A DNA stretch of 64,000 nt from Branchiostoma floridae (Eukaryota; Chordata; Leptocardii; Amphioxiformes; Branchiostomatidae): contig NC_049996.1 of NCBI RefSeq assembly GCF_000003815.2, positions 7,722,857-7,786,856 of the forward strand, given 5' to 3'. Below are positions 34,291-55,150 of the stretch, piece after piece. Each line of letters opens with the position of its first letter. Within the stretch, counting starts at the first letter, position 1. The notes below the pieces were generated by a model. That model was not told the DNA's origin. It did no database searches and was given only the letters and a program-made list of their open reading frames with translations. The position numbers and the translations under genes are program-made.

Positions 34291-34650
34291 TCCCCCTGTG
34301 GAGGCAAGCTCGGTGCTTGCAGCGGCGGTTGCTCCGCTGTCCTGTTGAGGCTTGTCCAGATGAGAGCGTGCAGTTTTCTCGACATCAGCTAAAGTTGTCT
34401 TGGGCATTTCTGTAGCACACACTGTGGTCTTCCGATTGCTAACAGTGGCAGTACATCCACTGGCCTTATTTGGACTATCTAGCTGAATGCGTGCTCTGTT
34501 CTCCTCCACATCAGTGAAAGTTGTAAGGGGTATGTCTGCAGAAGAGCTGGTCTCAGACGCCGTTGCGGTGGTCCTGTGCTTCATGGCAGCGGTGCTTGCT
34601 CTATTGTCTTTGTTAGGTTCAGCCAGACCAAAGCGTTCCCTGATCGCCAC
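34030..34650 (-). CDS. Receptor cytoplasmic tail, in a frame shifted from the 7TM exon
   Basis: Overlaps the last 30 bp of the 7TM frame. That frame ends at a TGA (34619-34621) 17 codons after TSKMV, whereas this frame continues smoothly with AIRERFGLAEPNKD. It then has two imperfect repeats (TTFTDVEENRARIQLDSPNK and TTLADVEKTARSHLDKPQQD) and ends in the SDVVAGG minisatellite repeat. The internal repeat and the long open frame argue that it is coding tail. Reaching it requires a one-base slip (assembly error, allele or real mutation) or an unrecognised splice near 34640. Confidence 0.45.
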   Translation of the reverse strand: MAIRERFGLAEPNKDNRASTAAMKHRTTATASETSSSADIPLTTFTDVEENRARIQLDSPNKASGCTATVSNRKTTVCATEMPKTTLADVEKTARSHLDKPQQDSGATAAASTELASTGGTDAVASGSDVVAGGSDVVTGGSDVVAGGIDVVAGGSDEVPVGNDVVAGGSDVVAGGSDVVAGGIDVVAGGTDVEAGGSDAWQAKLT

Positions 34651-36482
34651 CTTCCATTTCTCGCACCATCTTCGATGTTATTGTCAGTATCAGGGCCAGT
34701 AGAAGGCCCTGAGAAGCATTCAGCACAATGAAGATGTACTCGACAGCTCGGCTGTTGACGTAAGGATAGATGAAGCCGAGAATCCAGGTGAACCCCGTCA
34801 GGAAGCAGATACGCAGGTAAACCCAAGCCTTGCTGCTGTTCGAACGTGACTTTGCCTTGTCGGCTATCTCAAATGACTTCCGTATGGCAAGCAAGACAAA
34901 AGTGGCCAAGACAGCATTGACTAGAATGGCGCTGAAGACAGGGACTCCAAAAGCCAGCAGGTTGGCTACCGGATTGCCGATCCAACAGTTCTCTCCGTAC
35001 CCCACACTGACGGAACTGCCGAACTCTACAATCACAGTCACTATGACTATAGGGACCGGCATCAGCCATGTGTACAACAGGTACTGGTACAGCTTCGCTC
35101 TTTCTAAAGCATCACGAAACGTTAGAAAGAGGTCCATGGCAAGCGCGTTCATGGATGTGAAGGCCGTCAACAGAAAGTAGTGAAGAATTATCGCGAACGC
35201 TGCACAAGCCGATCCGAGGGGGACCCTCACACGTACCATAAACAAGACTTCAGCAAACGCCATGCATACCAACATCTGAACCTTCAGCTTTTCTGGGACT
35301 TTCTCCCACCGACCAGATCTTATATTGTGGACTACGTAACCAAACACTGCTACAGCGGACACTATCACAAGACCTAGGGTTAACCAGCCCTGGGTAGCGT
35401 CCCAAGGGTTAGGTATCTGTGTGTAGTTTGAGAAGTACTGAAGAATGCACTCCCCGCAGATCGATGCTGTTGTGTTCAGAATGGCCACATGCTCAGCTGG
35501 GCAGGACACGTTAGAACCCAACAGGAGGACGCTACCATTGGGAAGGACACGGAACTCTTCCGATGTGAACGTCAGAGCGGGTTCGCTGCAGTTTTGTAAG
35601 GGGGTGGTATTGTTTAATGAGCCGTGAGTTCTACGGGAGGACGAGAATAACCTGCATGTGTCTGCAAAAGGATCGTATAAAGTGTCGGAAGGACACTGAT
35701 TGGGACTGTTTCCACCACTCCCATACGAATTAAAGTTGAAGAGATTAGTGAGTGAGAATCTTGAGGGACATGCGTAATATTGAACGCAAGGTTCTTCTCG
35801 GAGTCCACTTAGTTCCGAAAAAGAAGCACACTTAAGGTTTGTGACTACCGTTAGAGAAAGTCCTTCACAAAGAGCACAGTGANNNNNNNNNNNNNNNNNN
35901 NNNNNNNNNNNNNNNNNNNNNNNNNNNNNNNNNNNNNNNNNNNNNNNNNNNNNNNNNNNNNNNNNNNNNNNNNNNNNNNNNNAGTAGGAGATATTACAAC
36001 TCTCTTCTGAAATATCAGCCTGGAAACATCGTCTAGCATGCCGTATGTCTAAAGGGACAAACGCTATCGTTTTCGTTCCAAAGCAATATTCGTCCCTACT
36101 TTCAATGATGCTGTTATATTCTTGGGAACCCCTAGGGATTTGTGGAGACAACTCAAGCATCCCTGTACATTCAACTTGCGACTCCCAAAGAACTGTTTCT
36201 GTTAAAGAAACATTGTTACAAATTGCACAAAATATGTTTCTGTAGGGGATTTTTGAATCGTCCTCCACAGGCATTCTATGGACGAGCTCACTTGGATTAA
36301 AAGGGTCCACTTGTTTTAAACACTTATCCTTTGTGATGTCATCTGTCCATTCATTAGGACAGTCGGCAACCATCCAATAGGACTCTTTGTTTTTGTTACT
36401 CTGGGTGTCAGGAGAAAGGCCAGACACACAGTCCCACTTCAGATGGTGATGGTCAGACGGTGTTTGGGATTCACTGCCTCCT
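34619..36482 (-). CDS. Ectodomain plus seven-transmembrane exon of the receptor
   Basis: One large exon, interrupted by 100 N (35883-35982). The ectodomain has Cys-rich units with CPNEWTDD, RNIFCAICNNVS, a second HCALCEGLS and CPSDTLYDPFADTC. There are many N-X-S/T sites (NIS, NNT, NCS, NGS, NVS, NTT, NYT). Seven hydrophobic helices follow: TM1 GWLTLGLVIVSAVAVFGYVV, TM2 VQMLVCMAFAEVLFMV, TM3 ILHYFLLTAFTSMNALAMDL, TM4 YLLYTWLMPVPIVIVTVIV, ECL2 NCWIGN, TM5 AFGVPVFSAILVNAVL, TM6 YLRICFLTGFTWILGFIY and TM7 YIFIVLNASQGLLLALILTI. These match family B2-type helices. No GPS motif (Cys-Trp pairs with HL/T) precedes TM1, so autoproteolysis is not expected. Confidence 0.88.
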
Positions 36483-39400
36483 CTGTAGCGGATGGAATAA
36501 AGCTTTAATAAATCACAATGCCTCTAATTAAGATGTTATGTTGAAAATTTAAACACGTCCTTTTCATTTTCGTAGATGCTGAGTAAAAGGAACAATTAGA
36601 ATCAGGGATTCTTTGTCGAAAATGAAAATTAGTCCAATTATAACGATGGAGGTTAGACACCCTGATAACAGGAGATGTAGGACAACAGTAACTCATTAGA
36701 CAAAGAAATGGATAGATTGTACTTATCTAGTTGTCTATCAGACACTAAGTAGCTGTTATCTTGCAGGCCAATAACAGCTAAGGAAATCCCTTCACCATGG
36801 ATACTAGTAAACAACATGGTAAACAGCATAGTCCAGTTTTAGCACTTACATAATGTGCAGCATGTAACAAGATTGTTGCACTTTTATTTCAATTCCATTT
36901 GAACAAACTAGACGTTATGCTGTGGACAGAAAGGGGCACAATGAGAAGATTTGTTAGAAAAAAAATCACATTTTTTGTACGTGTAAAACTTTTCTTGTCA
37001 CCGTTGAAATCGGCACTAGCAGATGGATAAATAGTGATGAAGACGTGAAGTTAAAATCGCTGTCAGTTGTTAGCATCAAGGTACATCAAGTCTATGATGT
37101 GGTTGGATGTGAAAAACTCATAGGACTGCTTTTAAGCTGTGATAAGCAATCAAGTATACGAACGGGTTAATTCGTTTCAAAATACCATGTAATGTATTTT
37201 CTGTCTTACTTTCTCTAAGACTTTTCACCACGCACACGGTTTCAAATATATGTTAATCTAATCATCCGATGTTGTTTAATTAGTAGAGTTGTAAGATGTA
37301 TTCTGTATTCTTTCTCTTTTTTTTGTTGCAGTTTATAGTTCACCATAAAAAATTACTGTATTTTTTGTCGTGTCAATAAAGCTTGTCTGATAATAATAGT
37401 ATCTTGAAGGTTTTTCTTGTTACCTAAAGCCCCTGGACTGTCTTTGATATCTTTTATCAGTAATCATATCCCTGTATGTTAGTCTCAATCAATATGATTG
37501 AAATATATATCAATATGGTGAACAGTTGTTGGCCAGCATGAGGTCCGAGTCGATGAGGCTGCTATCGGCCTGATTTTACCAGGCTAGTAGAGGTTTACTT
37601 ACTGAAAGTCTTGGCAGCAGTCACCGAAAAAGCTGCAGTCTTCGTCACAGTAGCAAAGTCGTGATGGGAAAGACTCTGCACAGGTGTAGTCTCCACCGCA
37701 GTCCTGGCCGACAGATCTAGAGCCCGGTGATAAAGGGTCAGAGCCACCGGTGNNNNNNNNNNNNNNNNNNNNNNNNNNNNNNNNNNNNNNNNNNNNNNNN
37801 NNNNNNNNNNNNNNNNNNNNNNNNNNNNNNNNNNNNNNNNNNNNNNNNNNNNAAAAGAAATCGAGGTCCGATCTTAAAAACAATGTTTGTAGTATGTGTG
37901 GGAATAGGTGTTCATCATTTAAATTTTCGTCCTTAGCAACCTCATTTTTCTATTTATTTGACCCCAAAGTTGAACTGGAACTTTAGCAATTATCCCATAG
38001 GAACCAATAGATAAGGTATTATTCCCATCATGCATCACGCCCGATGAATCTGCATGAAGGGACAATATTCAGTTACTGGATTATAAATGGTCCATTCATT
38101 TGTTCATCTGTGATTAATAACATTAATTGTTACACATTTAGCTGATTTTGTGCACATAAAGATGTGGTCTTTTTGAAAATAACACTCTCCTCTGGAGTAG
38201 AGTATGGCTTTAACTAGAGGGTCACATTTTCGTGATTATGCAGAATGTTTCCCAGCGGTTTTAACGGTCACTAGTCTACTGCTAAATTTCCATCGTAGCA
38301 ACTTTTTGATTACACGACTCCACACACACCCTGAGCCAGGGCTCCAGACTAACTTTTTAACTAAGAGCATGGTGCTCCTAACTTGTAAAACTTAGTAGCA
38401 CCAGCAAAAATTTAGGAGCACCACTATGAAAGGTAAAAGCACAAGCAAATGTCTTAAGCCATACAAAGTATTACTCCTATTAATCAATGTTTTTAACCTG
38501 GAATTAAACATTTGGATAGGCATTGATCCTGTTAAAAATGTTTGTTTGTTTGAACCTTTATTCATGAATGCTCATATCGGCCTTTGAGAGGAATAAACAA
38601 AAATAGTAGCAGTTACAGTCATATAGAACTATTGTACTAGTTAAGCATATAACATAGGCTGTACATAGAGCATGCGGTAGATTGATTATTCTGTCCTGTT
38701 CTATTTAAGAACACCTGTCACAACTGACAGCTCTGTTAAGAGAAATAAACAAAAGTAATAGTAGCACTGCAGTAAGTCATGAACCGTCTGTGCTATATAA
38801 CATAGGCTGTACATTGTATGAGAAATAAACCGAAATAAATAATAGTTCATTGTTCTCGCCATGCCTTTTCAGCATTACGGCCCGCTACACTGTGGGCTGG
38901 AAAAACGACGCTGTAAAGAGCCCGCTACGCTGTATTTTCACCCAGCGTAGCAGCAAAAAAAATGGGGAGGAAATTAAAAATACCGTAGTAAAAATACAAA
39001 AGCACGCGCCAAGAACGCGCCTTCGCTGTTTCAGGAAGTTATCAGCTCTATTAAAGGGAGATGTACAGCTGTTTCGCAGCCCCTCCTACCCAGGACCGCC
39101 CTTGCGTTCGCGCGAAATAGGCCTCGCCGCCGCACGTGATCAGGGGATGGGATCCCTCCCCAGAACAGCCAATATGTTTAAGATTTCCCGCGACTTCATC
39201 AAAGGACGCCGGCAATCAAACGCGGCTAGCTGTTGTTAGAGTTTCAAACAGTCATATGTCGTTTCCACAAAATTATTTATTAAACTGTAACATTTAGTCC
39301 CACATGTTTTATAGAGTAGAATCTGACGGGGAACAGCGGTTTCGCCGGGTATTTTTCTTGAAACATGTCCGTGGGGAAATCGTCTGATAGCGAGGCGGCG

Positions 39401-42400
39401 ACGTAGGGATATAAGGCCGTCAACATTAACAACAGTCGCACGGCACGGCGGTGTTTCCGCGATTCATTCCGCCAGCGGGGCGCGCTATCACTCAGCCAGC
39501 CGGCGTGTTGCTTGATTTTTCTAACCGCGGCTTCGTTCAGCAGCCATTACTTTAGGCGTAAGCTTTATTTCTTGCTCATTTTTTTATTGGCGCGCCGTGC
39601 GACCGTCATTTCAAAAATAGTTAAAATTACGGTCGCAATGCGAGCAAATCTAGTCGCAGACCCTCTCCTTCTTGTCGCGGTGCTGATACTGGTGTAGTAA
39701 TATACATTCAACATTAAGCTCTATTTCTTTACCAAAACATGCACATAAATGCAGAATCCCAAAGGTAGGTTTTGGTCGCAAGACGAAAGTATTCTTATAT
39801 TAAATGGATGTTTAAAAAGTAAAAAGGACAAATGAAAAAAAGTTCTCCCGCCTGGGACTCGAACCAGGAAATTACGATCAGATGCCGATGCACTCAGACC
39901 ACTCGGCCACTTACCGCACAACCAAAACCTGGAACTTTATCAGGTATACAAATGTATTGCATAGCTTGAACAGCTAGCGCCCTCAAGCGATCCATTGCTT
40001 CTCTCCAGGCTTCTCGCAGCATGACCGGACGGCTCCCATGCTTGCGGACACCGGCCTCACAGCCTATCTGAGACCGGTATCAAAACCATGCGGCGCAGTG
40101 CAGGTAAAAAGTACGGGGACATCACACCACCTTGTGGGACACCAGATGTCGGCTCCTTCCATGAACTGGCCACGCCGTTGAATACTACCCTCTGACGCCG
40201 ACCGCTGAGGTAGCTGTGGACCCAAGACACCACGGACTGGCCTGGATATCGATCACACGCTGTTGTAGTATGGCATGATTGACTCGATCGAAGGCTTTAG
40301 AGCAAACAAAGCTCTGACCAGGGTTGCCTTCTTAGAATCCAACGCAGTTAGCCAAATTTGTACCATACGCACAAGAGCGATCGTAGTTGAAGAGCACCTC
40401 ATGTACGCGTACTGGTCTTTAATGACGGCGCCTAAGGAAGAGAGAAGTCTCTTCAGGATGCATCGTTCCATCAGCTTAGCCAGCACAGACAGCAGAGAGA
40501 TGGGCCTCATGTCACAAACATCAGTCGCCCCGCGGATTTTGGGACTGCTGCGATGTTGGCTGATTTCTATATGAGGGGCACTGTACCGTCTTCGTACGAG
40601 GCATTGAAGAGGTGAGTTATGATGGGTGCAAGATCTTCAGCGTGTTCTTTAAGGATCCAGCTGGGGAGATCGTCCGGACCACTTGCCTTTCTGGGGTTTA
40701 TGGACTTCAGCAAGGATTTTACTTCTCAAATCGAGCAGAGTTCATGACCACTGGCTCCACGTGGGAGAGGGAACAAGGAGAGTGGCCGGCCCTGGCACCA
40801 AGATTCGGAGAAGTGCTTGTTGGTGCTTTCTGCCACTTCCACAGCAGATAGTCCACCCGTTGTGACAGACCCAGACCTCTCGCACGTTCTTCCAAGCTCC
40901 TTATTGATGCATGACCACCACTTGCTTGGATGTTTGCGCTTCAGGTGTTGAGTGTGGTTGCGATAATGCCAGTTCTTCGCTTGTCGTAAAACAGTCTTCA
41001 CCTTGTTTATGAGGCGTCTCCAAATGGGCGATTTACCATGTCGCCGGAATTCTGTTTGTCGTTTGACGATCGCCCTTTTGACTGTCAGTCATCCAGGTCT
41101 TGTTTTTCTTAGGGACGGTTTTAACACGCATAGGAAAGTGTATTTCGACAATGGCATTGATGGTGGTTGAAAAGGTTGAAAACTTTTTCTCCACGGACAC
41201 AGCTTCACTCACTGCCGTCCACTCCGTCCCGGCTAGGGCTAGTGCAAAGCCAACTTTCCTTGCATTGGTCACCACCCTGCGACATGTCGACCGCATTTGA
41301 CTCTTTCTTCCATAGCAGCTTTGTGCTGTTTTCAGACTGAAGGTCCNNNNNNNNNNNNNNNNNNNNNNNNNNNNNNNNNNNNNNNNNNNNNNNNNNNNNN
41401 NNNNNNNNNNNNNNNNNNNNNNNNNNNNNNNNNNNNNNNNNNNNNNAGAGCAAGCCAGCTGGGCAATTAATTACCCCTGTCACCACTGTGAGCCGGGGTG
41501 AATCACTATATACACTTTAGGGATATGAAGCCAGTGGCTGCACAGATCCACAATAGTAACTGTGACCATCCCTGTCACCTCTATATGGAATTAACCATTA
41601 TAAACACATTAATAAGAATATGTGCCAGGTGCAGGTGTAACAATCGGAAATAAAAATGCAATGGTGAGGTTGCTAGAAAGGTGTAGTTTTGGATCTCACC
41701 GTTTACCATAGGTAGATATATAAGAACACACTAAGATATATATAAGAATAGACATATAAGACCAATGATAGAATAATTTTGCCAAACGTCAAACCATATC
41801 GACCCCACAACACACCATACGCACCATCACAAAACAAAATATTTCATGCAGGTTTGACTTTCCAGAGTCTTGTTATGGTTGTAATAATTTCAGAAATCCA
41901 AGTTTGCCAAGACTAGCCTACTGATAGACAAAGATGGGTGAACGCACTACACGATGAAGCGTGTAAGCCATATTAACGTCACACACCAAAGAAGACAAAA
42001 CAAGCAACATATACCAGACCGACGTCACAGACTATGTTACCTACGGTCACTTGTTTACACTTTCATTTAAATGTGTTAAGAGCCTGTGGTGTGTGAGGAT
42101 GGCTGTGGGGCACCCGGTCTCCTGCCCTGTTCAGATATACGATATATAAACGTGTGTAATAAAGAGCATGTGGTGTGTGGGGATGGCTGTTGGGGGACTG
42201 GGAGTCCCATCTCTGACACACCCGGTCTCCCTTCCTGTGGGTTGGAACATACAATAGTTATAGACCGCTCCCCAAGTCACATACTGGGTTTCAAACGGGT
42301 GTCGCATGCATAGTAATGATCCCCGATTTGTATTTTGGTAGGCATTCATGAAAGCCTCGTTACCAATTCCCCGTCGCACTCGTTTACCCTATCCAGACTG

Positions 42401-45400
42401 GGCTTTTTGGGCCTTCCCTGGCCGGGGGGGGGGGGGGGGGGTTTGGGCCATCCCCAAATTTGCAGGAGAGATTGTACTCATCGAGTTTTATAATTCCTAA
42501 AAAATTTTATATTATTATGACGTAATATGACGTAATTATGACGTCATTAATTCATATTTTTGGCTAATACGGGGAATTCCCATAATACCTAGATATCTCA
42601 CTCAAAAAGTTACCAATAATGGTTTCTTATTAATATTTGAGTGTTATTAGACTTCTGTTGTCAAAAGACGACCCAACGACGTCAAAATGACGTCATAGAA
42701 TGACGTCATCTATAGTTTAGCTATCCGCCATCTTGGATTATCAACCTTAAATTTTTCAAGATACATTTTTTTCAACATATAACGCCAAAACCCCATGGAA
42801 ATGGATTACAAACGTTCACATGAATGTTTTCTGTAAGAATATACCACGTAGTGATGAAATCTGAGTGAAAATAAGCTTGTTATACTTTAAATCATGATAT
42901 TGTCGGCCATCTTGGATTTTGACCAATTACGTCATCTCATTAGCATAGTTTATGAATATTTAATTATACATGTTTAACTAAGATGTGTCAGATATTAAAG
43001 ATATATGAAAAGAAGTTTAGAAAGAAAATCTTAAAATCCCATTGTTTCAACCAAAATTAGTGATTTTTGTAAAATTTGCCTTTCAGAAACCCATTGCCAT
43101 GGCAACACGAAAAATCATAAACTTACCCAATTTGTTTTAAATTGTTGCCAACAATATTTTAGGAAAACTCACCAAGTTTGGTTATTCTAGCACAAGCCGT
43201 TTGAGAGATATAGGAGGTCAAAGTTGGCGCAGGCACAGGTTTGCGATAGTAAAATCTGCCCTGGTTCCATAAAAAAATGCATCTTACTGAAAGGGAAACA
43301 TCCTGCAGTTTCTCGAAAGTGTTACCTGGCAAGCGTCGGAATTTTTTGTTTGTGCTTTCTTGATGTCAAAGTTTTGATTTCGAAGGTTTGGAGGTTCCTA
43401 AACTACCCAGCTAGTCTCACCTGTTAGTCTGCCCTGCGTAACTCCTTCCCTTATCCACTGCGTAGAAGCATCGCGTCGGTGGGGCTGAAATCAAAACAAA
43501 ATGGAGGACGTATGAAAAATAAATTTTTGAACACATACATTTCTACAGTTGCCACGTATATACCAAGCTTACCTGAATGTGCGATCTAAAAAATATTATC
43601 TTAATGTCTGTATCATTCTATGTTAAATTCAGTCTATGAAATCTGATAAATTTATTTCGCTTAACGTGGAAGAGCACAAAATTGATCTAAAGTAGATATG
43701 ACAACAGAGTTTTGTATGGTATCGCAGTTAGGTTGGAAAAGTTACTGAGTGTGTCTATTATGTAGCCCCTACGCTGCAGTCATGGGTCGTAAGCTTCATT
43801 TTATGCGATCGTGTTCTGTTGGAAAAGGTACTAACTAATTAACACGACCAGGTTAAAGATGTGTATCCGTCCTTGGTTCAGGAGGTGAAAGGTGGTGGAA
43901 GGCGTTGGCGAACTTTATTCGTCAACGTTGAAGAATATAAACGTTGAATTTACCGTCACAGGCGAAGACCTCCTCGCAGTACATCCACCTGATGAGCGGG
44001 TTGTTTGTGTAGCACCACGGCCTGTCCTTCCCGTCCGGATTCCGACAGTAGTTCCGCTCCAGCCCTGCCCGTGGGTAGGCCTGGGGAGTGTGGTTATGGG
44101 TATGGGGATACTGAGATGTCCAGAACTGACAGGCGTTGTCCCGGTTTGCACGGCCCCTGTAGGTTGTCCCTCTGTCCCGTAGATAGTAACAGACTGTGGA
44201 CATATAACGTTACATCGTAAATATGTTGCAAAACTCAATTTTTTGCATGCTGTAGGTACAGAAGTATAGGCTAGCTTGATTGTTGCAGTGCACGTTCAAA
44301 TTTTTAACTCCCAAATAAACCGTACGTACCACAGTTCTGCTCGTCACTGTTGTCCCCACAGTCGTTTCTGCCGTCACACCGAGAAAGCTGGTGGAACAGG
44401 GCTCCATTGTCACAGGCAGAGGCCGCTGGAGAACGATAGGGCACTGTTGATCCACCACTTATGCATAACTTATCATTCAACTATCTCTCACTGTCTCTCT
44501 GTCTGTCTCTGTCTTTTTGTCTCTCTGTCTCTCTCTGCCTCTCTGCAGCTGTCTCCCTCTATCTTTGTCTCTCTTTGTCTCTCGCTCTCTCTGTTTCTGT
44601 CTCTCTGTCTCTCTCTCTTTCTCAGAGTGATACAGAATACAAATCTTTATGTGTTGTATGTATTAATTGGAGTGAGCTGGGTGTTAGTGGTTCAATCCTT
44701 GTCCACCATATATACACATCAATACAGAACTAGCGTCTACAAACATTACAGCCAGTTTACTCACAGCAGGACTCGTCGCTGCCATCCAAACAATCCTCCA
44801 CATCGTCACATCTAGCATCTTGTACTTGTACAGGCCGACGACCATAGCAGGGAATGTGAGTAAAGGCACACATTTTTTGTGAATCTATACACTGTCCATT
44901 GCTGCAGACCAGCCTTCCTTGACGCTCGACTCCACTCGGACAGATCTCTTTATCTACATTCAAGGAGAGAAGTCAGAGGATCGGTGACAAGGTCTCTACA
45001 CTACTAATTTACGTAGATTGTAATTTTTAGACATAAGCATTTGCACGAGTTTCATGAAATTTACATTAAGTTTATGAAAAACGTATTCGTAGTTAAAACG
45101 TACGAGGGTAAGGCAACTATCTCACAGAGCTCTGTTTGTTAATTAACTGGTCCAAATTTGTAGCTGACATTGCGTTTACTTTATAATTTCCAAAAAGGTT
45201 CAATTCGCAAAATTTTTTGAATGGACCAGAACTAGTAGTATCGCCAACAAGAGCGGTCACTTCATACTGCACTGGTATCACTACTATTTCAAATAAAGAT
45301 ATTTCGTATTTACGTTGGGAACAAAACATAGAAAATCGAGCAGATTAAAATGGGACTGAGCAGAGCACCTTGGACTAATGCTTGTAGCCTTTCACAGACT

Positions 45401-48400
45401 ACACCTATATATCAGATATTTTGTAAAAATGTTCCTTGTTACCCAACGGATCATTATACCCCCCCCCCCCCGTGGGAGTCTTCATGCTTCATTGAAAATT
45501 TAAAAAAATCTTAAAATCCCGGGTTTTTCTTTGAAAAAAAAACGGGATTTTTTTGGGGGGTCCAAATAAAATCCCGGGTTTTCTTTGAAAAAAAAAACGG
45601 GATTTTTTGGGGGTGCCCAAATAAAATCCCGGGTTTTCTTTTAAAGAAACGGGATTTTTTCGAATACCCTGATAAAATCCCGGGTTTTTTAATTAAAGAA
45701 ACAGGATTTTTTGCTACTAACTTCTAAGGACACTGTCAGATAAACTGTGCCAGACTATATGTTAATAAGAATGGGAAGTTAAGTCATTATCAATGGCACT
45801 GAAAGTAGCAGGCACGTTTTACCTGGGGTACAGACTCGGGTCTATATCAGAACCACTGTACGTTGCGGTTTACATCATGTTGTTGTGACTTCAGTGATTA
45901 ATGAGCAGAATGCTGCTGATGATAATAGTCATAAATTGATGTAAGGAGGGGTCACTACAAGGTGCATTAATGTGAAAATTATGTGAATTTAGTGCAAGAT
46001 TCTATAAAGATGTGATACAATGTGAATCCGGCTAGAAATATGTGAAACCCAAAATGTGATCTCTTTTTAAAATGTGTATGGTCAAATGTTATTATAGGTA
46101 AAACAATGTGACCCTTCCCAAAGTGTGAATCAGTTATGTGAAATTGCACAACCCTAACACTTGACCCCAAAAATGTGAATGTAAAATGTGAAAAAAATGT
46201 AAAGGGATGTGAATGGACTTTACTCCGAAGACTGCACAGAGTCAAATGTGAAATTATGTGAAGTTGAAATCACACTGTCACATAACAGACCAAAATGTGA
46301 TTTAATGTGAAAGTGTGTCACATAATTCAACATTTGCCGGGGTCCAACCTCAGAATATGAATTTATGTGAAAAAAGCTAACCCGCCGTGCATGAGCCTTA
46401 TTTCGCGCCATGCGCTTTTATCAGTCTCAAATAGGCCACATAGAAAGTAGAATTCATAAAGGAAAGAAATGAGAATATCGCCCATAGCCAATAAAGTACG
46501 CACGCGGTTAATATGAAAAATTGTGACTTGCCTGCGATAAAAGATGTAATCCTTTTTAATGACCAAACTACCATTGCCGATTTCTTTTCCAACTAGCGTA
46601 ATAGTTAAGCAGACCGAATTGGAGGCTCATCTCCCGTGGCGCAATGCTCTTCAGAGCAAGCGAGGATGAGTGAGTGAGTGAATGAGTGAGTGAGTGAGTG
46701 AGTGAGTGAGTGAGTGAGTGAGTGAGTGAGTGAGTGAGTGAGTAATAGTTTAGTAGAGAAATAATCTCTAAGCTGATGAGCAGACCCACTCTGTCTCAGC
46801 ATTCCACGGTGTTTGGAAACATTTGGTGTGGTTAGACAACATTTAGCAGCTTCTAAACTCTTTGTCTCCCGCATCTTCCGGCATTGTATCTCAACGCTAA
46901 CATGTGTGCAAGTCACTAAAGCTTACAATATTATACTATATTCATCTACATCTTATGATCTAAGAAAATGTCGTTCTACGGTGTCAACTTCAGAAAATAA
47001 CACACAGGATTCAACACGACACCATTTACATAGCAGATTAGACATGTATGTGTCAAACACTGTCAGTCTTGGTCCACTTCACGTACGGCAGAATATCCCT
47101 CAAGGCTCAAGGTCTCAAAACACAGTTTTTCGCCTATGGCGATTTACATGGTTAAGGATCCCCAAAGTGAGGTGGTTCGACGACTCAAAACCTATAGTAG
47201 GGTGCAGATACAATTTACAAGAATTTATCATGTTGAACTTGAGGGTACAATGTACAAGATATCGGAAAATGAGCATAGATTTGTCTGCTCGTTTTTCTAT
47301 AAAAGCCACTTTGATTTGACCCCCAGCGGAGGTCATGAAACTGCAGCCAACGCACAGGTAACAGTATCAAGGCACAAATTCCCACCAGCCGACGAAGCAA
47401 CGTAATCCAACTTATACAGTATCAGCACCGATGTATTCCTCTACCATTCACCACATTTTCCACCTCGCTGTTGTGCACGGAATAATAATTACGGCCTTTG
47501 CAATTGCAAGTACTGTGAGGGACTATTTTATACCCAAACTACTTTTGGGGACAGGGGTCGCGGATACATACTGTGTTCTGATACCTCTAGGATGATACAC
47601 GGTGCAGCTAGCAAATACCCTTCCGTACCGCCTGCTTCCTGAGATCTTTTAAGAAGCGGGAGTGAGACATAGGCTCAGAGCAAACGAATCAACACTCCTG
47701 ACGAAGGTCGACGGATGTGCGACCGAAAATTCGAGGTGAGCAATTTTTTGTATACTTCAATATGGATTATACCATCGCAACACAGATGAGCTTTCATGCT
47801 AATAAACATGTCATATTTGAAAATAAAGTGTTTCTGACCTGTCTCAGCATACACCTCCACCTCGCACAGTGACAATTCGTCTCGCCGTCCCATCAGCTGT
47901 ATTGACACATAACGACCGGGTATCGGCGGGCTGCAGTACACCACGATAGTCTGCCCATCCTTTGGTGTGTCCGTGTACATCTCTCCGCACTGATCATTCT
48001 GGGCAAAGTCCTCATTCGGGCCGACGCGCACCATGAAGTTCTTCAATCGTTCTCCTGCAAATACAAACATTCATAAATGTAATTGCATCTTTCAACATCT
48101 TTCGGCATCGTGTTGGGCAATCGGTAACGTATTTGACCCAGACCCAAGACGTAACGAGTTCGAAATCGCTGATTTGTTCTAATGTTGTGCCCTTGGGAAA
48201 GGCACTTTACACGACTTTCCTCACTTCACTCAGGTGAAAATGAGTACCTAGCTTCGGTTAGGGCCGTCTTCGGATAAGACGTTAAATGGAAGTCCCGTGT
48301 TCGAGGAGAGCCACACCTATAGCACGTTAAAGATCCCACTACACTTCTCGAAAATAGTAGGGGTCCTTCCCGGTGTGATCGGTTAAAAACTACAGTCCAA

Positions 48401-49115
48401 AGGCCGCATCTGGGGCAATTACTGTCGTATTGAAGTCACCTGAGTGGCGCCTAATGGCAGCTTGCCCCAAACCCTTGCGATTTACCCCCGCGCCTATTGT
48501 AAGCTCCTCGCAAATCAACCCTGGCTGTGAAGAGAGAGTAGTCGGCCCACACAATAACATAACAATAACACAAAAAAAATCTACAAAATGTAACCCATTT
48601 GCGTCTTTCAAGAGCACGCTGAATAAGTATTTAACCTAGCCTTTTAAAAGCACACTAAACCTCTGTAGAGAGGTATTTACTTATTCTCACTTGGTTTAAA
48701 TTCCTATCAAATCAACATCAACGTCATCTTATTCACAGAGTCATGAAGATTTATCTGTGCCCAGTGCTCTTCGAAATTTGAACTGCTTCTCAAATTCGTT
48801 TATGGTAATTACAATAATGTAGTTCTGTAGAAATCCACCATTATTGCGTGGAATAAGATAAGATTAAGATGAATATAAACTTACCACAGCAGTCGCCCCT
48901 GTTTAGAATGCTGATCCGCTTTATTGCGTAGGTACGTGACAAATCCACCTTCCACCATGGTTGATATTCATTTTTGGTGTGAGTGCACGCTTTTCCTGTG
49001 CCAATGTCCGTCGCTCTGGAACCATCAACAGCCTTTCCGGCACCCAAGGCTTCCCCCAGGTAAACATAGTCGGAACTCTGGGTTGCTGTCTTACCAATAG
49101 CCAGGTTGCCTTTCC
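34619..49115 (-). CDS. Chimeric 7TM receptor: F-type lectin-LDLa-LDLa-kringle-SMB-7TM
   Basis: Predicted cell-surface G-protein-coupled receptor of the adhesion/secretin/methuselah-like group with a mosaic ectodomain. Minus-strand exons: 49115-48885 and 48054-47839 (lectin), 44953-44765 and 44425-44330 (LDLa), 44193-43954 (kringle), a gap-truncated exon ending 37603 (somatomedin B), and 36482-34619 (ectodomain and seven helices). The first five exons are all phase 1 in and 1 out, the classic shuffling phase, and every split codon completes sensibly. The SMB-7TM junction is phase 2 on both sides. The join between kringle and SMB cannot be checked because of the N runs at 37753-37852 and 41347-41446. 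The signal-peptide exon was not found. Two neighbouring genes remain possible, but the same strand, order and phases favour one. Confidence 0.68.
35883..35982. other. Assembly gap (100 N) inside the receptor exon
   Basis: The frame is the same on both sides if the true gap length is kept modulo three. A 100-base placeholder gives no information about real length. Confidence 1.
36483..37602. other. Intron between SMB and 7TM exons; no gene
   Basis: AT-rich, with no recognisable element. Contains AATAAA-like and poly-T tracts. Confidence 0.6.
37603..37752 (-). CDS. Somatomedin B domain exon of the receptor
   Basis: Encodes GQDCGGDYTCAESFPSRLCY, then CDEDCSFFGDCCQDF. This is the eight-Cys SMB knot with its diagnostic CYCDEDC and GDCC signature. 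SMB domains are small disulfide knots that bind proteins such as PAI-1 in vitronectin. Donor CA|GTAAGT in phase 2, matching the acceptor of the next exon (36482). The exon's 5' part is lost in the adjacent gap. Confidence 0.88.
37753..37852. other. Assembly gap (100 N)
   Basis: Hides the 5' boundary of the SMB exon and possibly another module. Confidence 1.
37853..39842. other. Intron/intergenic DNA with a CpG-rich patch
   Basis: Duplicated ATAACATAGGCTGTACAT segments (38647, 38798) belong to an unclassified repeat. Between about 38850 and 39620 the sequence is CpG-rich relative to its surroundings (GCGCGCCG, CGCGAAATAG, GGCGGCGACG). The 129-residue frame at 38850-39239 lacks a domain. The patch could be a promoter or the terminal part of a transposon. 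Confidence 0.4.
39843..39919 (-). tRNA. tRNA-like sequence, probably pseudogene or SINE head
   Basis: On the minus strand: D-arm-like GTGGCCGAGTGGTCTGAG with box A, and T-arm GGTTCGAGTCCCAGG with a perfect box B. The acceptor ends do not pair, and the anticodon stem (GCATC versus GATCG) is broken, so no anticodon can be assigned. The arrangement is that of a decayed tRNA of the Leu/Ser-like D-arm type, or a tRNA-derived SINE. Confidence 0.4.
39990..41346 (-). pseudogene. Decayed LINE reverse transcriptase
   Basis: Read on the minus strand across three frames. An upstream linker includes NAIVEIHFPMRVKTVPKKNK, then WWSCINKELG, then RT motifs MRPISLLSVLAKLMERCILK, KDQYAYM and, in another frame, AFDRVNHAIL. 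These follow the order of non-LTR RT blocks. The catalytic YADD block is not seen, so the copy is truncated as well as frameshifted. It sits in the presumed kringle-SMB intron, and its 5' part is cut by the gap at 41347. Confidence 0.7.
41347..41446. other. Assembly gap (100 N)
   Basis: Lies within or next to the LINE relic. Confidence 1.
42063..42254 (-). pseudogene. Two kringle-exon relics
   Basis: On the minus strand, after an ACCCACAG acceptor, a peptide with RVCQRWDSQSPNSHPHTP is a near-perfect match to the middle of a kringle. About 80 bp further, GDRVPHSHPHTPQAL repeats the end of it. Neither has the remaining cysteines. They lie on the 3' side of the intact kringle exon (43954-44193), on the same strand, and look like tandem partial duplications. 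Confidence 0.55.
42424..42441. repeat. Poly-G run
   Basis: Eighteen consecutive G. The length is likely unreliable in assembly. Confidence 0.95.
42460..43953. other. Intronic repeat DNA with clustered ACGTCA motifs; no gene
   Basis: TGACGTAA and TGACGTCA-type motifs occur about seven times between 42518 and 42712. Two GCCATCTTGGAT segments (42727, 42906) suggest an internally repeated dispersed element. No domain in any frame. Confidence 0.45.
43954..44193 (-). CDS. Kringle domain exon of the receptor
   Basis: About 80 residues with the six kringle cysteines and hallmarks: CYYLRDRGTTYRGRANRD, NACQFW, NYCRNPDG, RPWCYTNN, RWMYCEE and FAC. Phase 1 in and out, acceptor CCACAG, donor GTAAAT. Kringles are binding modules of proteases and receptors. 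The Asp of the NPDG motif is present. The loop before ACQFW lacks the usual Thr/Ser-rich TxSG and is slightly short. Confidence 0.92.
44330..44425 (-). CDS. LDL receptor class A module 2 (four-Cys variant)
   Basis: Encodes ACDNGALFHQLSRCDGRN, then DCGDNSDEQNC. The calcium-binding acidic cluster (CDGRNDCGDNSDE) is intact, but only four cysteines are present, so one disulfide of a canonical six-Cys LDLa is missing. Phase 1 in and out. Confidence 0.88.
44461..44632. repeat. (CTCTCTGTCTGT)n microsatellite
   Basis: CT/CTGT-rich tract in the short intron between the two LDLa exons. It produces spurious Leu/Ser/Cys-rich frames on the + strand. Confidence 0.95.
44765..44953 (-). CDS. LDL receptor class A module 1 with an insertion
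   Basis: Encodes ICPSG, RLVCSNGQCIDSQKMC, then an insert with PCYGRRPVQVQ, then ARCDDVEDCLDGSDESC. The C-terminal calcium site (DCLDGSDE) is intact. Eight cysteines are present instead of six. The extra pair lies around the insert in the middle of the fold. Phase 1 in and out. The split codon with the lectin exon gives Asp. Confidence 0.85.
45350..45855 (+). repeat. Left arm of a distant inverted repeat, with CCCGGG hairpin array
   Basis: About 500 bp that recurs inverted at 55986-56460. Contains a C run (45461) and four to five imperfect units of AAAATCCCGGGTTTTCTTT followed by AAACGGGATTTTTT, each unit self-complementary. High similarity of the two arms points to recent origin. See the matching right arm. 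Confidence 0.8.
45952..46375. repeat. ATGTGAA-rich low-complexity repeat
   Basis: Dense AATGTGAAATTATGTGAA-type words. The first 75 bp (CACTACAAGGTGCATTAATG onwards) recur inverted at 53040-53125. Intronic to the receptor model. Confidence 0.7.
46655..46743. repeat. (GTGA)n tail, probably LINE 3' end
   Basis: GCGAGGATGAGTGAGTGAGT matches the end of the LINE at 30110-30400 (GCGAGGATGAGTGAGTGAGT), so this is likely a second, heavily 5'-truncated copy of that family. Confidence 0.7.
46744..47838. other. Receptor intron, no further feature
   Basis: No exon or recognised element between the (GTGA)n tail and the second lectin exon. Confidence 0.5.
47839..48054 (-). CDS. F-type lectin domain, C-terminal exon
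   Basis: Continues the lectin fold: GERLKNFMVRVGPNEDFAQN, QCGEMYTDTPKDGQTIVVYC, PIPGRYVSIQLMGRRDELSL, CEVEVYAETG. The GRYVSIQL and LCEVEVY strands are the conserved end of the fucolectin/F5-8C-like family. Enters in phase 1 after TTTGCAG and completes the motif residue R of the fucose site. Leaves in phase 1. Confidence 0.92.
48108..48392 (+). mobile_element. tRNA-derived SINE
   Basis: Head TGGGCAATCGGTAACG (box A) and GAGTTCGAAATC (box B), core CCTTGGGAAAGGCACTTTAC to GTACCTAGCTTCGG, then GTTAAATGGAAGTCC. It is the best-preserved core of the three copies in this window. It lies in the intron between the two lectin exons. Confidence 0.78.
48885..49115 (-). CDS. F-type lectin domain, N-terminal exon
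   Basis: Encodes KGNLAIGKTATQSSDYVYLG, AGKAVDGSRATD, CTHTKNEYQPWWKVDLSR, then ISILNRGDCCG. The F-type lectin fucose signature H-X26-R-X-D-X4-R/K is present exactly: His of CTHT, 26 residues, Arg-Gly-Asp, then CCGE and Arg (the last from the next exon). The family binds L-fucose on glycans with a bound calcium. Phase 1 in and out. An upstream exon carrying the signal peptide must exist but was not found. Confidence 0.92.
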
Positions 49116-49239
49116 CTGCAAATGAGCCGTAGTGGAAAGTAAACAACTGCGATGTTTCGGATGATTTTCTTTACGCCGGGTCAAGCAGAATGAACGACCA
49201 TTAGAAAGGCCGACATTTGTTTGAGAGCAAGTACATCAT

Positions 49240-49785
49240 ATTTCAGCCATCTCCCTCCCTATGCAATAATAGACTGTTCCAAAAGCACCCATGTTCGAAA
49301 ATGAAACACTTCTGCTTAAAATGACTTCTACTAAACACACTTTAGCCCAAAAATGAATCTTAAAAAATTCCCTCCGTGCAAGAATGGACTCTTCTAATGC
49401 ACCCCATGTAATAAGGTAAAATAGACCAGTCAAAAAACTCTTACGCTAAAAAATGGAATTTTGAATCATCACCCGTTCAAAACTGAATTTGAAAAAAAAA
49501 AAACCCCTCCGTGCAATGATAGACTCTCCCTGTGATATCCCTATGTAAAAAAAAACTTCCGCTAAAATAAGACTTTGACATAATCACCTAAGTCCAAAAA
49601 TGAATTCGTAAAAATGCCCCCTGCGTGTAAGAATCAAATCTAACAGCGCACCCCATTTGAATTGCAAAATAGACCAGTCCAGAAATACTCCCACTGAAAT
49701 AACAGCCTTTTGTATAAGCAACCCAGTCCAAAATTGAATTTTTTTTAAAAGTCCCCCGTGCATAAATGGACTTTTCCAGATTACA
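49240..49785. repeat. Degenerate 120-135-bp tandem repeat
   Basis: Four to five loose units, each starting near CCCTCCGTGCAAGAATGGACTC and ending in CCAAAAATGAATT plus an A-run (starts near 49250, 49370, 49503, 49617, 49755). Related words occur inverted near 52890-52990. Confidence 0.65.
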
Positions 49786-49950
49786 TCAGCCTCGCTGATT
49801 GGCTTCCGAATCCTCCTCATGTTTTTGATTCAGGCTAGATCATTGGCTGTCTTTGATTAATTTATAGACATGTCCAGGCCTAGCACCTGAAAGAGAAGGT
49901 CGTTGACCTCTGGCCAATTTGAAAATGACCCCAAAATATTTTGAGCGTGA

Positions 49951-51760
49951 AAGAAATTTGGCGTAGATAGGCATTAGATAGTTGGTAAAATGATCCAAGT
50001 AAAATGTTTTGCATAAACTACTTTAAAATGCTTAATTTCAGCACTTTTCTGAGGAGAAATTGGTTTTCTTTCGGCCTCCTGCCGTGAACTCCAGTGACCC
50101 CACACACCTGCGGCAGCCTGGGCTTTTGCGAGTTAATTGAATTTAATCGGGCCAGCCAATCAGCGCGAGGAAGGCGAATGCTAATTAATATTCATGAGCT
50201 GGCTTCAAATGCCGTATATACAGACAGAAACACATGCATATTACAGCCTTACAGTGGCCATACATGTGTGTGTCACCCTTTGCCCGGTTTAAAATTGTAG
50301 TTTGCGAGGATTTGGAGTTCAAACAGGGTCATTTGAGCGGTAGCGGATGTTAGAATACAAGTCTTTGTCGTTGAATTAATCAACATTCCGCATGGTAATA
50401 TCAATCAATTTCGGCATAGTTGACTTTGGTAGGGTTAGTTGAGACAATCGAGTAATTGTATTTTGGCGGAAAACGCGGGAAAATTTTCCAGTGTGCGTTT
50501 TTTTCATATCTGCCTCTTAAATGATTTTATTGATATGTAAAGGTCATCTTTTGACCAAAACGGCCCATTGTACCTACCTGGTATTACAATGGAATGACCT
50601 GAAATTTGGCGTAGATAGGCATTAGATAGTTGGTAAAATGATCCAAGTAAAATGTTTTGCATAGACTACTTTAAAATGCTTAATTTCAGCACGTTTCTGA
50701 GGAGAAATTGGTTTTCTTTCGGCCTCCTGCCGTGAACTCCAGTGACCCCACACACCTGCGGCAGCCTGGGCTTTTGCGAGTTAATTGAATTTAATGGGGC
50801 CAGCCAATCAGCGCAAGGAAGGCGAATGCTAATTAATATTCATGAGCTGGCTTCAAATGCCGTATATACAGACAGAAACACATGCATATTACAGCCTTAC
50901 AGTGGCCATACATGTGTGTGTCACCCTTTGCCCGGTTTAAAATTGTAGTTTGCGAGGATTTGGAGTTCAAACAGGGTCATTTGAGCGGTAGCGGATGTTA
51001 GAATACAAGTCTTTGTCGTTGAATTAATCAACATTCCGCATGGTAATATCAATCAATTTCGGCATAGTTGACTTTGGTAGGGTTAGTTGAGACAATCGAG
51101 TAATTGTTACTTGGCGGAAAATGCGGGAAAATTTTCCAGTTTGCGTTTTTTTCATATCTGCCTCTTAAATGATTTTATTGGTGTTTAAAGGTTATCTTTA
51201 GACCAAAACGGCCCATTGTACCTGGTATTAAAATGGAATGACCTGAAATTTGGCGTAGATAGGCATTAGATAGTTGGTAAAATGATCCAAGTAAAATGTT
51301 TTGCATAAACTACTTTAGAATGCTTAATTTCAGCACTTTTCTGAGGAGAAATTGGTTTTCTTTCGGCCTCCTGCCGTGAACTCCAGTGACCCCACACACC
51401 TGCGGCGGCCTGGGCTTTGGCGAGTTAATTGAATTTAATGGGGCCAGCCAATCAGCGCGAGGAAGGCGAATGCTAATTAACATTCATGAGCTGGCTTCCA
51501 ATGCCGTATATACAGACAGAAACACATGCAAATTACAGCCTTACAGTGGCCATACATGTGTGTGTCACCCTTTGCCCGGTTTAAAATTGTAGTTTGCGAG
51601 GATTTGGAGTTCAGACAGGGTCATTTGAGCGGTAGCGAACGATACGCATGCATTGAACGTTAGAATACAAGTCTTTGACGTTGAATTAATCAACATTCCG
51701 CATGGTGATATCAATCATTTTCGGCAGAGTTAACTTTGGTAGGGTTAGTTGATACATTTG
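49951..51760. repeat. Three tandem units of about 645 bp with promoter-like elements
   Basis: GGCGTAGATAGGCATTAGA occurs at 49960, 50608 and 51252 (periods 648 and 644). Copies are nearly identical for over 600 bp. Each has CCAAT in CAGCCAATCAGCG (50156, 50804, 51448), a GCTAATTAATATTCATGAG or similar segment, and GTATATA (50214, 50862, 51506), always about 58 bp after CCAAT. The short frame after GTGACCCCACACACC is open in all three but starts without ATG and has no domain. These could be duplicated promoters, small-RNA units or a satellite seed. Confidence 0.8.
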
Positions 51761-53320
51761 AGGAAATGTTACTTAGCAGATAACGCTGGAAAATTGGCCA
51801 GTTTGCGTTTAATTTTGATACGTAGGTTTGGCAGTGGCGAAATTGATTATTTTCTCATCAATATTTCTCGTCATAATTATTTAAACTGTAAATCTAAACA
51901 ATTGGCTTACATGTGTAATTTTTGTATGAATAAAGATCAGTGGGTACTAGAATTATGTGTAACTTATTGCTCTTTGTCAATAGATCAGCATTTTTCTATA
52001 GTAGCCATATGTCTATAGTGGCAACATTTCTCTCACTGTACTGGAAAGAAAAGTGATGTATTTTTTCCCGAGCAAAAATGTAGGTACTTCTAGTGTTGTT
52101 GTTTTTTATTATTTTACCTTTGTACATTAAAATTGTAAGTAACTTTAAACTGCCTGAGTTTTAGCCCAATAAAACACTCCCAGTGCCAGGGTATCACCAC
52201 TGACCCCCGAAAAGAAACCCTCGAACAAGGTAGAAACTCCTATCCTCCGGGTCTCGCACGCTACGAGCAGGAAATTATAACACTAACACAACAAGATTAC
52301 GCCCGATGGCTGTTGCATACAAAGTAAAACAATTTAACAGTGGTATGCAGGAGAATATACATAACAAAGAAGGAAATAAAATATATAGATAAAGCCACAT
52401 CAAGTTAAGTTGTTGGTCCTGGAATTTTTCAGAAAAGAAATGAAGCGAAAGACCGGTAAATTCTTTTAAAAATTCGAGACATCTCCAGTTCATACAATGG
52501 TTCATGCAAAACAAGAAAAAGATTTAAGTTTTCAACTTGAAAAAACAAACACTCCTACTTCACAGTACCAGCACCTGCTTGATAATTATTAAAACGCATT
52601 CCATACTTGAATAAAAGAAAAGTTCACTGCAATAATAAATGTATCCACATCACCAGGAGCTGATAACAGTACTTAGACGTAATAATTGTACTGGAAATTG
52701 TTGAATGGCTTCATGTAATGTCCTGATGAAAATCTTCTGAATAGAAGATGCGGTGTTTTTATTTCACTTTCGGAAAAATAGGAGCTGCCGCGATTCTAAA
52801 AAAACAATTAGTTATGCATCTGTCTTGACCTGGAATCAATTCACAATATTAGTTCTCTTTTTGGGATAACTTACAGTCAAAATGTTCCATTATTGCGCAG
52901 GGGTGACTTGGAACAGTCCAATGTTGCGTGGAAATGGGTATGGCTGAAATATGCTGTATTTGCACCCAAGCAAATGTCGGCCTTTTTAGTTATGTGTTAA
53001 CTTATGTGATAAAATGTAATGCTGTTGAACCTCAAAATGGTTCACATTATATCACATTTTCTTGGAATCTTGCAACAGATTCACATAATTTTCACATTTA
53101 TGCACCTTGTAGTGGGTGCAGATGTGTGATTATCATTGTGAAAAGGTAGACGAAGTAATGTTTGAACTTAAAGAAAGTACAGAAAACGTGTCTTGATTCA
53201 TATTCTTATGTGCAAAATATGTGACACACTCCTGGTCTGTATCAACAAGTTCTTGTGCTGAAACTGTGTTCCACACACACACGCACGCACGTCGTAGAAT
53301 AGGTAACTGCAACTAGGTAA
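51761..53320. other. No gene seen; dispersed repeat fragments
   Basis: Includes the inverted partner (53040-53125) of the repeat at 45952 and a segment related to 49200-49270. Otherwise AT-rich unique sequence. Confidence 0.5.
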
Positions 53321-53536
53321 CTACCCGTAAAGGCGCAGTCACATAGGTCCTGCGATTGTTGTATGATTTTGATGCCATGAGATTTTCAAGCAGGTTGTGC
53401 AAGAACAAACCACCGACATGGATCAAAAACAGCATTTTGTGTACCAAGACAGTTGATACGTACATTTTTGTCCGGCCAAATACCTTTAGTTAGCGATCGT
53501 ACAGCGATCGCACGAGCTATATGTGACCGCGCCTTA

Positions 53537-54352
53537 TACCCGCCTCACATTAGGCGCGATTCGATCGGAAGACTAGTTTACGAGCTCTAAATGACATTTT
53601 CGTGAGTAAGACGTCCGGTGTTCTCACGATCATCTTGCGATTTTTAGGTATCGCCGGCAATTTTCAGGAGTCTTACGACGGTCGCGGTGCAGCGAAACAT
53701 GTTATTAACATAAGCGATAAGTCGCAGGAGATCTCCGAGATCGCAGAGCTCGTTACCGAGTCGCAGATCGTGCGTGCAAATCGTGCGTACCTCGCAAGGG
53801 TATCGGCCAATAGTCTTGCGTCAATCCAACGATTGAAGACCGATAGGCGAGCACAGACATAGTTATTAATCATCGAACGCAAATCGAATGGCGAACGCCC
53901 GTTAGTCGGGCGACGTTCGGGTGGCGTTCATCCGACTTCCGATTGTTTACAAATATTGAATTTCTGGGAATGTGAGGGTGATTCTAACATTGTGGCCCCT
54001 GTGGCAGTATGTAGGCTGGCTTTGTGACACACTTTCCTTTCTTGTGTCATTTCCATTATGCCCGCACATTCCATTCATTGGTTACAAAGATTCCGACAAC
54101 AAAATGAGCAACATTTATTGATCTCTTGCCTTTTTTGAGGAAAGTTTTGTATTTCCTTGTCCGCGTGCAAGAGGTCATGGGAGTTTCATTATCATAGATT
54201 TATTCACCGTCGATCGCACGAGGTTCGCCTATATGTGAGGGGAACAGGTTTTGGGCGAAAGATACGCAAGACCATCTTAAGATCTTAAAATCAGCCGACC
54301 TTCCTGCGATCGCGAAGTACGTCCGAAGATCGTATATAATGTGAGGCGGGTA
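53537..54352. mobile_element. 816-bp terminal-inverted-repeat element
   Basis: Perfect 16-bp ends TACCCGCCTCACATTA and TAATGTGAGGCGGGTA, flanked by TTA on both sides (or TA if the ends start at CCCGCC). The interior is rich in CGATCG and TCGCG motifs. The 86-residue frame inside (53602-53862) has no domain, so it is non-autonomous. A 3-bp TTA duplication would suit a PIF/Harbinger origin, but that is inference. Confidence 0.72.
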
Positions 54353-55150
54353 TTAATACGAGACCTGACGTATGTTTGTTCTACGACGTCTCTGCAAATA
54401 AGTAAATGAACTATAAACTTGTCATCATTCAGCCTAGTTGGTCATAATCTCTTGCCCGCGAAACAGTGTACAAAGACTATGAAATTGCAAGACACAGCTG
54501 ATACAATTAATTGTTATATTTCTTTATTCGTTTTCAATCTTGCAATCTCTGTGTGGACAAATATGTCACATTGGCCGTAGAAGAACTTTATTGCACGACA
54601 GTTGTACACGGTACAATGCATGGCAACAATTATTACACCATGGCAACAATTATAAGTACAAAATAGAGGTCATCATCATCGGTCGACGTGCTTACACACG
54701 ACGGGGTTATACCGCCCCTTACGGAGTCACATACCATTTCGTATGGCTAGTTACAAGATGTGCCAGGTGAATCATGTAAATCACTGTGTTGCTGATACGA
54801 GACAGAGGTTCGCCAGGCCTCCATCCTTGTGATTTGCAGTGAATCACCAACTCCAGACAGCAGGATTTGCACCATCGCACACCGCACGTTCGGTGGGTTC
54901 AAGTGCGCGGGGTGTTGCTCTCCCTAAACACAGGACCTTCATTTCACGCTCTATCTGAGGGACAGCTGTAGCCGAAGCTAGACCATAGCTAAACCCATAC
55001 AGTCCTACATTTTCACGATTACCAAGAAGCGAGAAGAAGCCGAACTTCTTTGTTTGACTAGATCTGTGATACTTTTATGCATATACATATGTTTTTTTGT
55101 CTTGTTGTGACCTGTACTTAGCTCTGTTGGGCAAAAATGTACAATAAAGG
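54353..55150. other. Fragments of dispersed repeats
   Basis: 54578-54680 copies the outer arm of the foldback at 17613-18280. About 54950-55175 looks like a non-LTR element 3' end, ending AATAAAGGTCTTTATTCATTC. Confidence 0.55.

Follow-up and report, generated by a model that had tools for sequence, protein, structure and literature searches.

F-type lectin exons inside a CACTA-type transposon in an intron of an amphioxus LDLa-kringle-somatomedin B receptor gene

The receptor gene and its family

The window, as the whole stretch of DNA analysed here is called, comprises 64,000 nucleotides of Branchiostoma floridae contig NC_049996.1 (C18:7722857-7786856, in a genome of 513 Mb and 431 contigs). 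Its minus strand holds the exons of a seven-transmembrane (7TM) receptor with LDLa, kringle and somatomedin B (SMB) domains and, upstream of them, two exons of an F-type lectin; a CACTA-type DNA transposon encloses the lectin exons (Table 1). An earlier note, made from the letters of the window, had listed these domains in this order with their splice phases and had joined them into one transcript. Pfam on the minus strand agrees with the domains and their order, with matches to a kringle (8.8e-22), an SMB domain (1.1e-5), 7tm_2 (3.7e-19) and two LDLa modules (the first at 0.0016, under the cut-off, the second at 6e-8). The phases agree as well: the five exons from the first lectin exon to kringle 1 have AG/GT borders, lengths divisible by three and phase 1-1, and the junction from the SMB to the 7TM exon is read as phase 2.

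Runs of N interrupt the window at 32561-32809, 35883-35982, 37753-37852 and 41347-41446, while 41447-64000 is free of them. A second kringle is absent from the window assembly and probably lies in the gap at 37753-37852, as judged from the paralogous locus L039, which has about 2.85 kb including kringle 2 at the matching position. At two gaps the assembly probably lacks kringle and LDLa exons of the gene.

A genome search with the 7TM part returned 35 rows, which reduce to 30 loci with the window included, five rows being second pieces of the same loci. Neighbouring domains were tallied on the same strand upstream of each 7TM part, with limits of 12 kb for kringle 1, 4 kb for kringle 2 and 60 kb for the F-type lectin; the upstream sequence is shorter than 60 kb for two contigs, C141 and C343, in the lectin tally. 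The tally used 49 of the 150 kringle candidates scored (out of 512), the other 101 having been left out once the list had been read through, and all 150 of the lectin candidates scored (out of 489). Kringle 1, at 74-100% identity, precedes the 7TM part at no fewer than 22 of the 30 loci, the window among them, and kringle 2 at at least 22; both are present at 21 among the matches listed, the window alone having kringle 1 without kringle 2. SMB presence was checked in the window and two paralogous loci: L039 carries kringle 2 and SMB, and in L042 three LDLa, two kringle and one SMB exon stand in line with the 7TM part. The window is collinear with L042 across LDLa, kringle, kringle and SMB, its own kringle and SMB exons standing upstream of the 7TM part on the same strand as in the SMB/kringle 7tm_2 family. 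The window receptor belongs to the amphioxus LDLa-kringle-kringle-SMB-7tm_2 family. That the gene might be broken between kringle and SMB is not supported, because kringle and 7TM co-occur at 22 of the 30 loci and the window is collinear with L042; to this extent the single transcript of the earlier note stands.

By sequence, the closest solved 7TM structure is that of ADGRL3. The GPS/GAIN signature of the Adhesion G-protein-coupled receptors (GPCRs; class B2) was not found, the GPS motif giving no match at E<=1 in six of six paralogous 7TM exons. It could be argued that the receptor copy as a whole is decaying into a pseudogene, in which case lectin inclusion would be irrelevant. One extra base after the seventh transmembrane helix (34619-34677, minus strand), absent from all five aligned paralogs, shifts and shortens the C-tail, the frame ending about 20 residues later; two LDLa exons are fused and kringle 2 is missing from the present assembly. 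But the 7TM stretch is open, its ratio of nonsynonymous to synonymous substitution (dN/dS) is 0.22-0.56 against 18 paralogs with no stops, its private changes (five nonsynonymous, four synonymous) fall inside the range of five close paralogs, and kringle 2 is probably in the gap. We consider decay unlikely.

Two side observations concern the receptor loci. A GGTDVVA-like minisatellite is repeated in the C-tails of several paralogs. Window positions 37853-41342 match L039 at 99.4% identity across 3.5 kb and include a weak RVT_1 match (0.004, under the cut-off); this identity points to receptor loci duplicated in tandem very recently, together with a stretch resembling a long interspersed nuclear element (LINE).

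The lectin exon pair

The joined lectin exons match two lectin structures over their full length, FBP32 (3cqo, 5.7e-47) and 1k12 (1.1e-23), the latter presumably the eel agglutinin. Aligned to 3cqo and 1k12, they have the fucose motif RGDCCGER and the calcium motif VDGS, in keeping with the F-type lectin motifs H...RxDx4R for fucose and h2DGx for calcium (PMC5712786; this and the other papers cited are used for the parts of their texts available to us). Both exons are intact and lie in sense orientation to the receptor.

Among the matches listed, an F-type lectin within 60 kb upstream on the same strand occurs at one of the 30 7TM loci, that of the window; no such lectin was found at the other 29, and an old family of F-lectin GPCRs was rejected on this count. 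Related lectin exons lie beside other partners elsewhere, namely PAN and C-type lectin domains on C10, F5/8C on C7, C-type lectin and F5/8C on C14, and trefoil on C5. The borders of lectin exon 1 are alike in C3, C7, C10 and C5, the C14 border not being caught by the script. As judged from these contexts, the pair reads as a shuffled two-exon module. Lectin exon 2 differs from its C3 copy by one synonymous change.

The CACTA-type element

The lectin exons lie inside an element that begins CACTACAAGG and ends CCTTGTAGTG, with CACTACAAGGTGCAT at both ends; its first ten bases are identical in a copy on C10. CACTA elements are described as having the CACTA motif, subterminal repeats and a 3-bp duplication (PMC8978399). 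Duplications of 3 bp are found here, GGT in the window and TAG in the C10 copy, and the motif TCACAT/ATGTGA, chosen by eye, occurs 18 times in the left and five times in the right 500 bp, against a mean of 0.63 per 500 bp. Host coding sequence, the two F-lectin exons, stands between the terminal inverted repeats (TIRs) of one element, the defining arrangement of a Pack-TIR. The family is multicopy: at least 40 matching ends occur genome-wide (40 of 50 candidates scored), with eight inverted pairs 7.7-18.2 kb apart among the matches listed, and the C10 copy, of 9,133 bp, shares these termini and is flanked by a duplication of its own.

Table 1. Features of the receptor, the lectin exons and the inserted sequences, in window coordinates
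Feature	Position	Strand	Basis
Ectodomain and 7TM exon, with gap 35883-35982 inside; early stop after the seventh transmembrane helix	34619..36482	-	Pfam, paralog alignment
SMB exon, 5' end inside gap, phase-2 donor	37603..37752	-	Pfam, paralogs
Assembly gap in which about 2.8 kb with the kringle 2 exon is probably missing	37753..37852	-	L039 comparison
Kringle 1 exon	43954..44193	-	Pfam, borders
LDLa exon	44330..44443	-	Pfam, borders
LDLa exon, fused from two LDLa exons that are separate in L042	44765..44953	-	Pfam, paralog comparison
F-type lectin exon 2, phase 1-1	47839..48054	-	Weak in Pfam (0.032, under cut-off), borders; joined-exon match
F-type lectin exon 1, phase 1-1	48885..49115	-	Pfam F5/F8-type 1.8e-12, borders
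CACTA-type (Pack-TIR) DNA transposon carrying the F-lectin exons, 7,162 bp	45953..53114		Empty site, termini, duplication
TIRs, 73 bp, 88% identical	45953-46026 and 53114-53041		End comparison
Target-site duplication GGT, left copy	45950..45952		Single GGT in L050 empty site
Target-site duplication GGT, right copy	53115..53117		Single GGT in L050 empty site
Stretch inside the element common to other F-lectin loci: lectin exons with the introns on either side, without a signal-peptide exon	45955..49937		Alignments
Insertion of 11.1 kb compared with L042 and L045, at a site between LDLa0 and LDLa1 of these paralogs; CACTA-type element nested within	45333..56458		Paralog comparison
Inverted repeats of about 0.5 kb bounding the 11.1-kb insertion	45350-45854 / 56460-55986		Genome-wide repeat family

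A second carrier of the same lectin exons lies on C3 (L052/L044/L040), with both element ends, at C3:1025575 and 1039227, and with a signal-peptide exon between them as well. It interrupts an exon read by eye as EGF; the next exon is EGF by Pfam, and C-type-lectin exons lie nearby. Inside it about 8.7 kb of repeated sequence is visible as recurring long frames; Tandem Repeats Finder, at periods up to 500 bp, reported no repeat unit in L044. Window positions 45955-49220 align to C3 over 3,289 columns with 62 mismatches (1.9%) and 45 gap columns, and the match in the 5' intron to C3, C7 and C10 extends to about 49937. The window element is without the signal peptide of the C3 type and has 3 kb of other sequence in its place. 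The C3 locus as a plain donor gene was rejected, its lectin also lying between both element ends.

Two further observations touch the element family. Where the C3 copy has its signal-peptide exon, window positions 49953-51810 consist of about three direct copies of a unit of some 648 bp. On C7, an F-lectin locus that belongs to a tandem cluster has an end of the same family (L049, 1776-1856) about 144 bp ahead of its signal-peptide stretch; this locus is perhaps the source of the capture.

A bolder proposal can be framed, in which a multicopy CACTA-type element is at present delivering a phase 1-1 F-lectin cassette to lancelet surface genes, here yielding an expressed, very young and probably polymorphic fucose-binding GPCR and elsewhere entering an EGF/C-type-lectin gene. 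We offer it tentatively and think it rather doubtful.

The empty site and the age of the insertion

A tandem receptor locus (L050/L051) is without the element: the sequence corresponding to window position 45952 is joined there directly to that of 53114, with one GGT. Up to these junctions L050 is 99.1% identical to the window over 44928-45952 and 98.3% over 53114-55271. Divergence between the tandem locus and the window is 0.6-1.7% in stretches near the insertion and in 58391-63997, and 3.3% over 35983-37739. Since the site is empty in an otherwise near-identical locus, the insertion is younger than the split between the window and the tandem locus, unless it was cleanly lost from the latter. 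It may well be polymorphic; in the Chinese lancelet, alleles differ by 4.39% in single-nucleotide polymorphisms (PMC4284660).

The empty site bears on the claim of an established fucose-sensing GPCR with the lectin as an old component under selection, which was how the earlier note had in effect treated it. Domain order, phases and binding-site residues are all as such a receptor would have them, but the site contradicts an old origin and the lectin is lacking from the other 29 7TM loci among the matches listed. We hold an established receptor to be extremely improbable, and the lectin as a settled domain is the part of the single-transcript claim that is not supported, on these two grounds and on the transposon itself. 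It is also conceivable that segmental duplication or misassembly set an unrelated F-lectin gene beside the receptor, given the assembly gaps nearby and the 97-99% identity of the region to other loci. Against this, both junctions lie within the N-free part of the window, the inverted repeats, duplication and empty site are exact to the base, and no signal-peptide exon of a lectin gene was found in the window. Such an accident is very unlikely, and the simple juxtaposition of two genes is rejected by the inverted repeats, the duplication and the empty site.

The element is nested in an 11.1-kb insertion, of which the tandem locus has part and for which no clean target-site duplication was found. 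The repeats of about 0.5 kb that bound it belong to a family (40 of 143 candidates scored) with pairs 18-28 kb apart and short elements that have the outer 83 bp in common, among the matches listed. The idea that these repeats, at 45350 and 56460, had brought the lectin in directly was rejected, the sequence absent from L050 being the nested 7,162-bp element.

Gene model and splicing

No signal-peptide exon of the receptor family was found in the window, and LDLa0, sought there, was not found either. In the C18 cluster such signal-peptide exons stand one per minus-strand receptor, in order, at 7794462, 7825827 and 7869799, and from this order the exon at 7794462 (in L045), 7.6 kb beyond the window, is taken as the first exon of the window receptor. 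A run of 3,155 N beyond the window is bridged by the tandem locus, whose position 15774 corresponds to window position 63997 and whose position 18704 corresponds to position 3169 of L045; a kringle and an LDLa0 exon lie between the two.

On this model the transcript would run signal peptide-LDLa0-LDLa1-LDLa2-LDLa3-[kringle-LDLa0' in gap beyond window]-F-lectin-LDLa-LDLa-kringle-[kringle in gap]-SMB-7TM. The predicted frame from LDLa0' (taken from the tandem locus) through the lectin, the two LDLa exons and the kringle is open for 366 residues, or for 217 without the lectin, with no stops, so that the reading frame is kept whether the lectin pair is included or skipped. The reading that we regard as very probable is that of a receptor of known family into which a CACTA-type element brought the F-lectin exons, as an optional cassette in an intron. 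A transposon of this type would have captured part of an F-type lectin gene and then entered a receptor intron that already held an older repeat insertion, its lectin exons reading in the same direction as the receptor. The pair would be a cassette that the transcript could take up or omit without a break of frame; on inclusion the receptor would gain a fucose-binding module, the rest of its ectodomain and its 7TM part being unchanged. Judged by the motif residues, fucose binding by the lectin is putative and any effect of binding on receptor signalling is conjectural; we infer fucose sensing with G-protein signalling, as proposed in the earlier note, on the same footing.

Whether the cassette is ever used is a separate matter. 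The lectin exons may be silent passengers, sitting in an intronic transposon and never or only negligibly spliced into the receptor mRNA. The insertion is young and present at one of 30 loci among the matches listed, the donor of lectin exon 2 (GTCAGA) was judged weaker than consensus, and at least 30% of profiled animal Pack-TIRs are transcribed as chimeras (PMC8277862), which leaves room for many that are not. Speaking the other way are AG/GT borders, a phase that fits, the sense orientation and a frame free of stops, and we regard a silent passenger as evenly poised between true and false. Splicing of the lectin exons into the receptor mRNA is quite possible, though we lean slightly against it.

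Several points weigh against the insertion of a usable cassette by a CACTA-type element. Lectin inclusion is a prediction from genomic sequence, and the allele with the insertion may be a rare one. Both LDLa0' and the connection to the signal-peptide exon fall in the 3,155-N run and are modelled from a tandem locus that is not fully collinear (56553-56764 and 57091-57445 of the window are inverted in it, and it has 4.2 kb extra) and whose 3.3% difference over 35983-37739 was given above. The spacing from H to R in the fucose motif is 26 residues in the window and in 1k12, against X24 in the published formula (PMC5712786). No transposase was seen among frames of at least 120 residues in one full copy (C10, 9.1 kb), and the C3 element falls 2 nt short at its right end, where its duplication is not readable. 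The extra base in the C-tail belongs on the same side.

Other features of the window

A type IV collagen gene lies at 3712-18750 on the plus strand, with two C4 matches (3.2e-16 and 2.3e-19) and a weak collagen repeat (4.6e-5, under the cut-off). On the minus strand at 60496-63520 there are long open frames which by eye resemble a transposase with a SWIM-like zinc finger; they have no Pfam match.

Relation to known systems and significance

The receptor type and animal Pack-TIR elements are both already known. The amphioxus expansion of SMB/kringle Adhesion GPCRs comprises ten genes with LDLa, kringle and SMB on 7tm_2 (Nordstrom et al. 2008, PMC2246102), as in the window, and the earlier note was right to place these domains on amphioxus receptors. 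Unlike the window, the available text of that paper names no F-type lectin; its figure key has 'DS, discoidin'. A fucolectin exon can score in Pfam as F5/F8 type C. An SMB ectodomain on a B. floridae 7tm_2 receptor also occurs among the Mth/Mthl receptors (de Mendoza et al. 2016, PMC4768249), for which, in contrast to the window, the available text describes no lectin, kringle or LDLa. The earlier note had thought an F-type lectin on a GPCR new. Lectin-like domains on 7TM receptors are known from the latrophilins, which carry a domain of the rhamnose-binding-lectin type on 7tm_2 (PMC3269628), but these differ from the window receptor in lectin fold family and in their OLF, HormR and GPS architecture.

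F-type lectins like that of the window, in sequence, binding motifs and multidomain contexts, have been reviewed, with more than 70 sequence clusters in B. floridae; the main text of the review does not contain the term 'gpcr' (Vasta et al. 2017, PMC5712786). In lancelet genes with presence-absence variation among animals, a fucolectin occurs with two C-type lectin domains, CUB and APEC; these proteins are of the secreted APEC type, unlike the window receptor, and 'gpcr' is absent from the text as available (PMC12373286). Literature on F-type lectin or fucolectin together with GPCR surfaced, in the texts available, only the rhamnose-type domain of latrophilins and separate tables of human lectins. 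Within the open literature searched, subscription papers lying outside it, no report was found of the in-phase delivery of a lectin domain to an intron of a GPCR gene.

The element resembles the animal Pack-TIRs of Tan et al. (2021, PMC8277862), TIR DNA transposons with host gene pieces, of which multicopy ones have transposed and some are chimeric with neighbours. Their median duplicated piece is 224 bp, compared with two whole in-phase domain exons in a receptor intron here, and the main text mentions neither 'Branchiostoma' nor 'lancelet'. Plant Pack-CACTA elements (Gisby and Catoni 2022, PMC8903248) likewise have CACTACAA termini and captured coding DNA, but they are described from plants, and rice and maize CACTA duplications are 5 nt, against 3 bp here.

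Lancelets were reported to shuffle exons faster than any other metazoans, with a phase 1-1 bias and an association with transposon fragments (PMC4284660). The apparent lectin receptor has the look of a shuffling event seen shortly after it took place, not of an established receptor. Others attributed the reported shuffling to gene-prediction errors and discussed apparently unique 7tm_2 architectures (PMC4967905); that lancelet domain fusions can be errors of this kind is a caution that applies to the lectin-receptor fusion of the window until RNA is seen. The locus offers a before-and-after pair exact to the base, with element ends, duplication, empty site, in-phase exons and a second carrier, and the annotation dispute over lancelet domain fusions becomes directly testable there.

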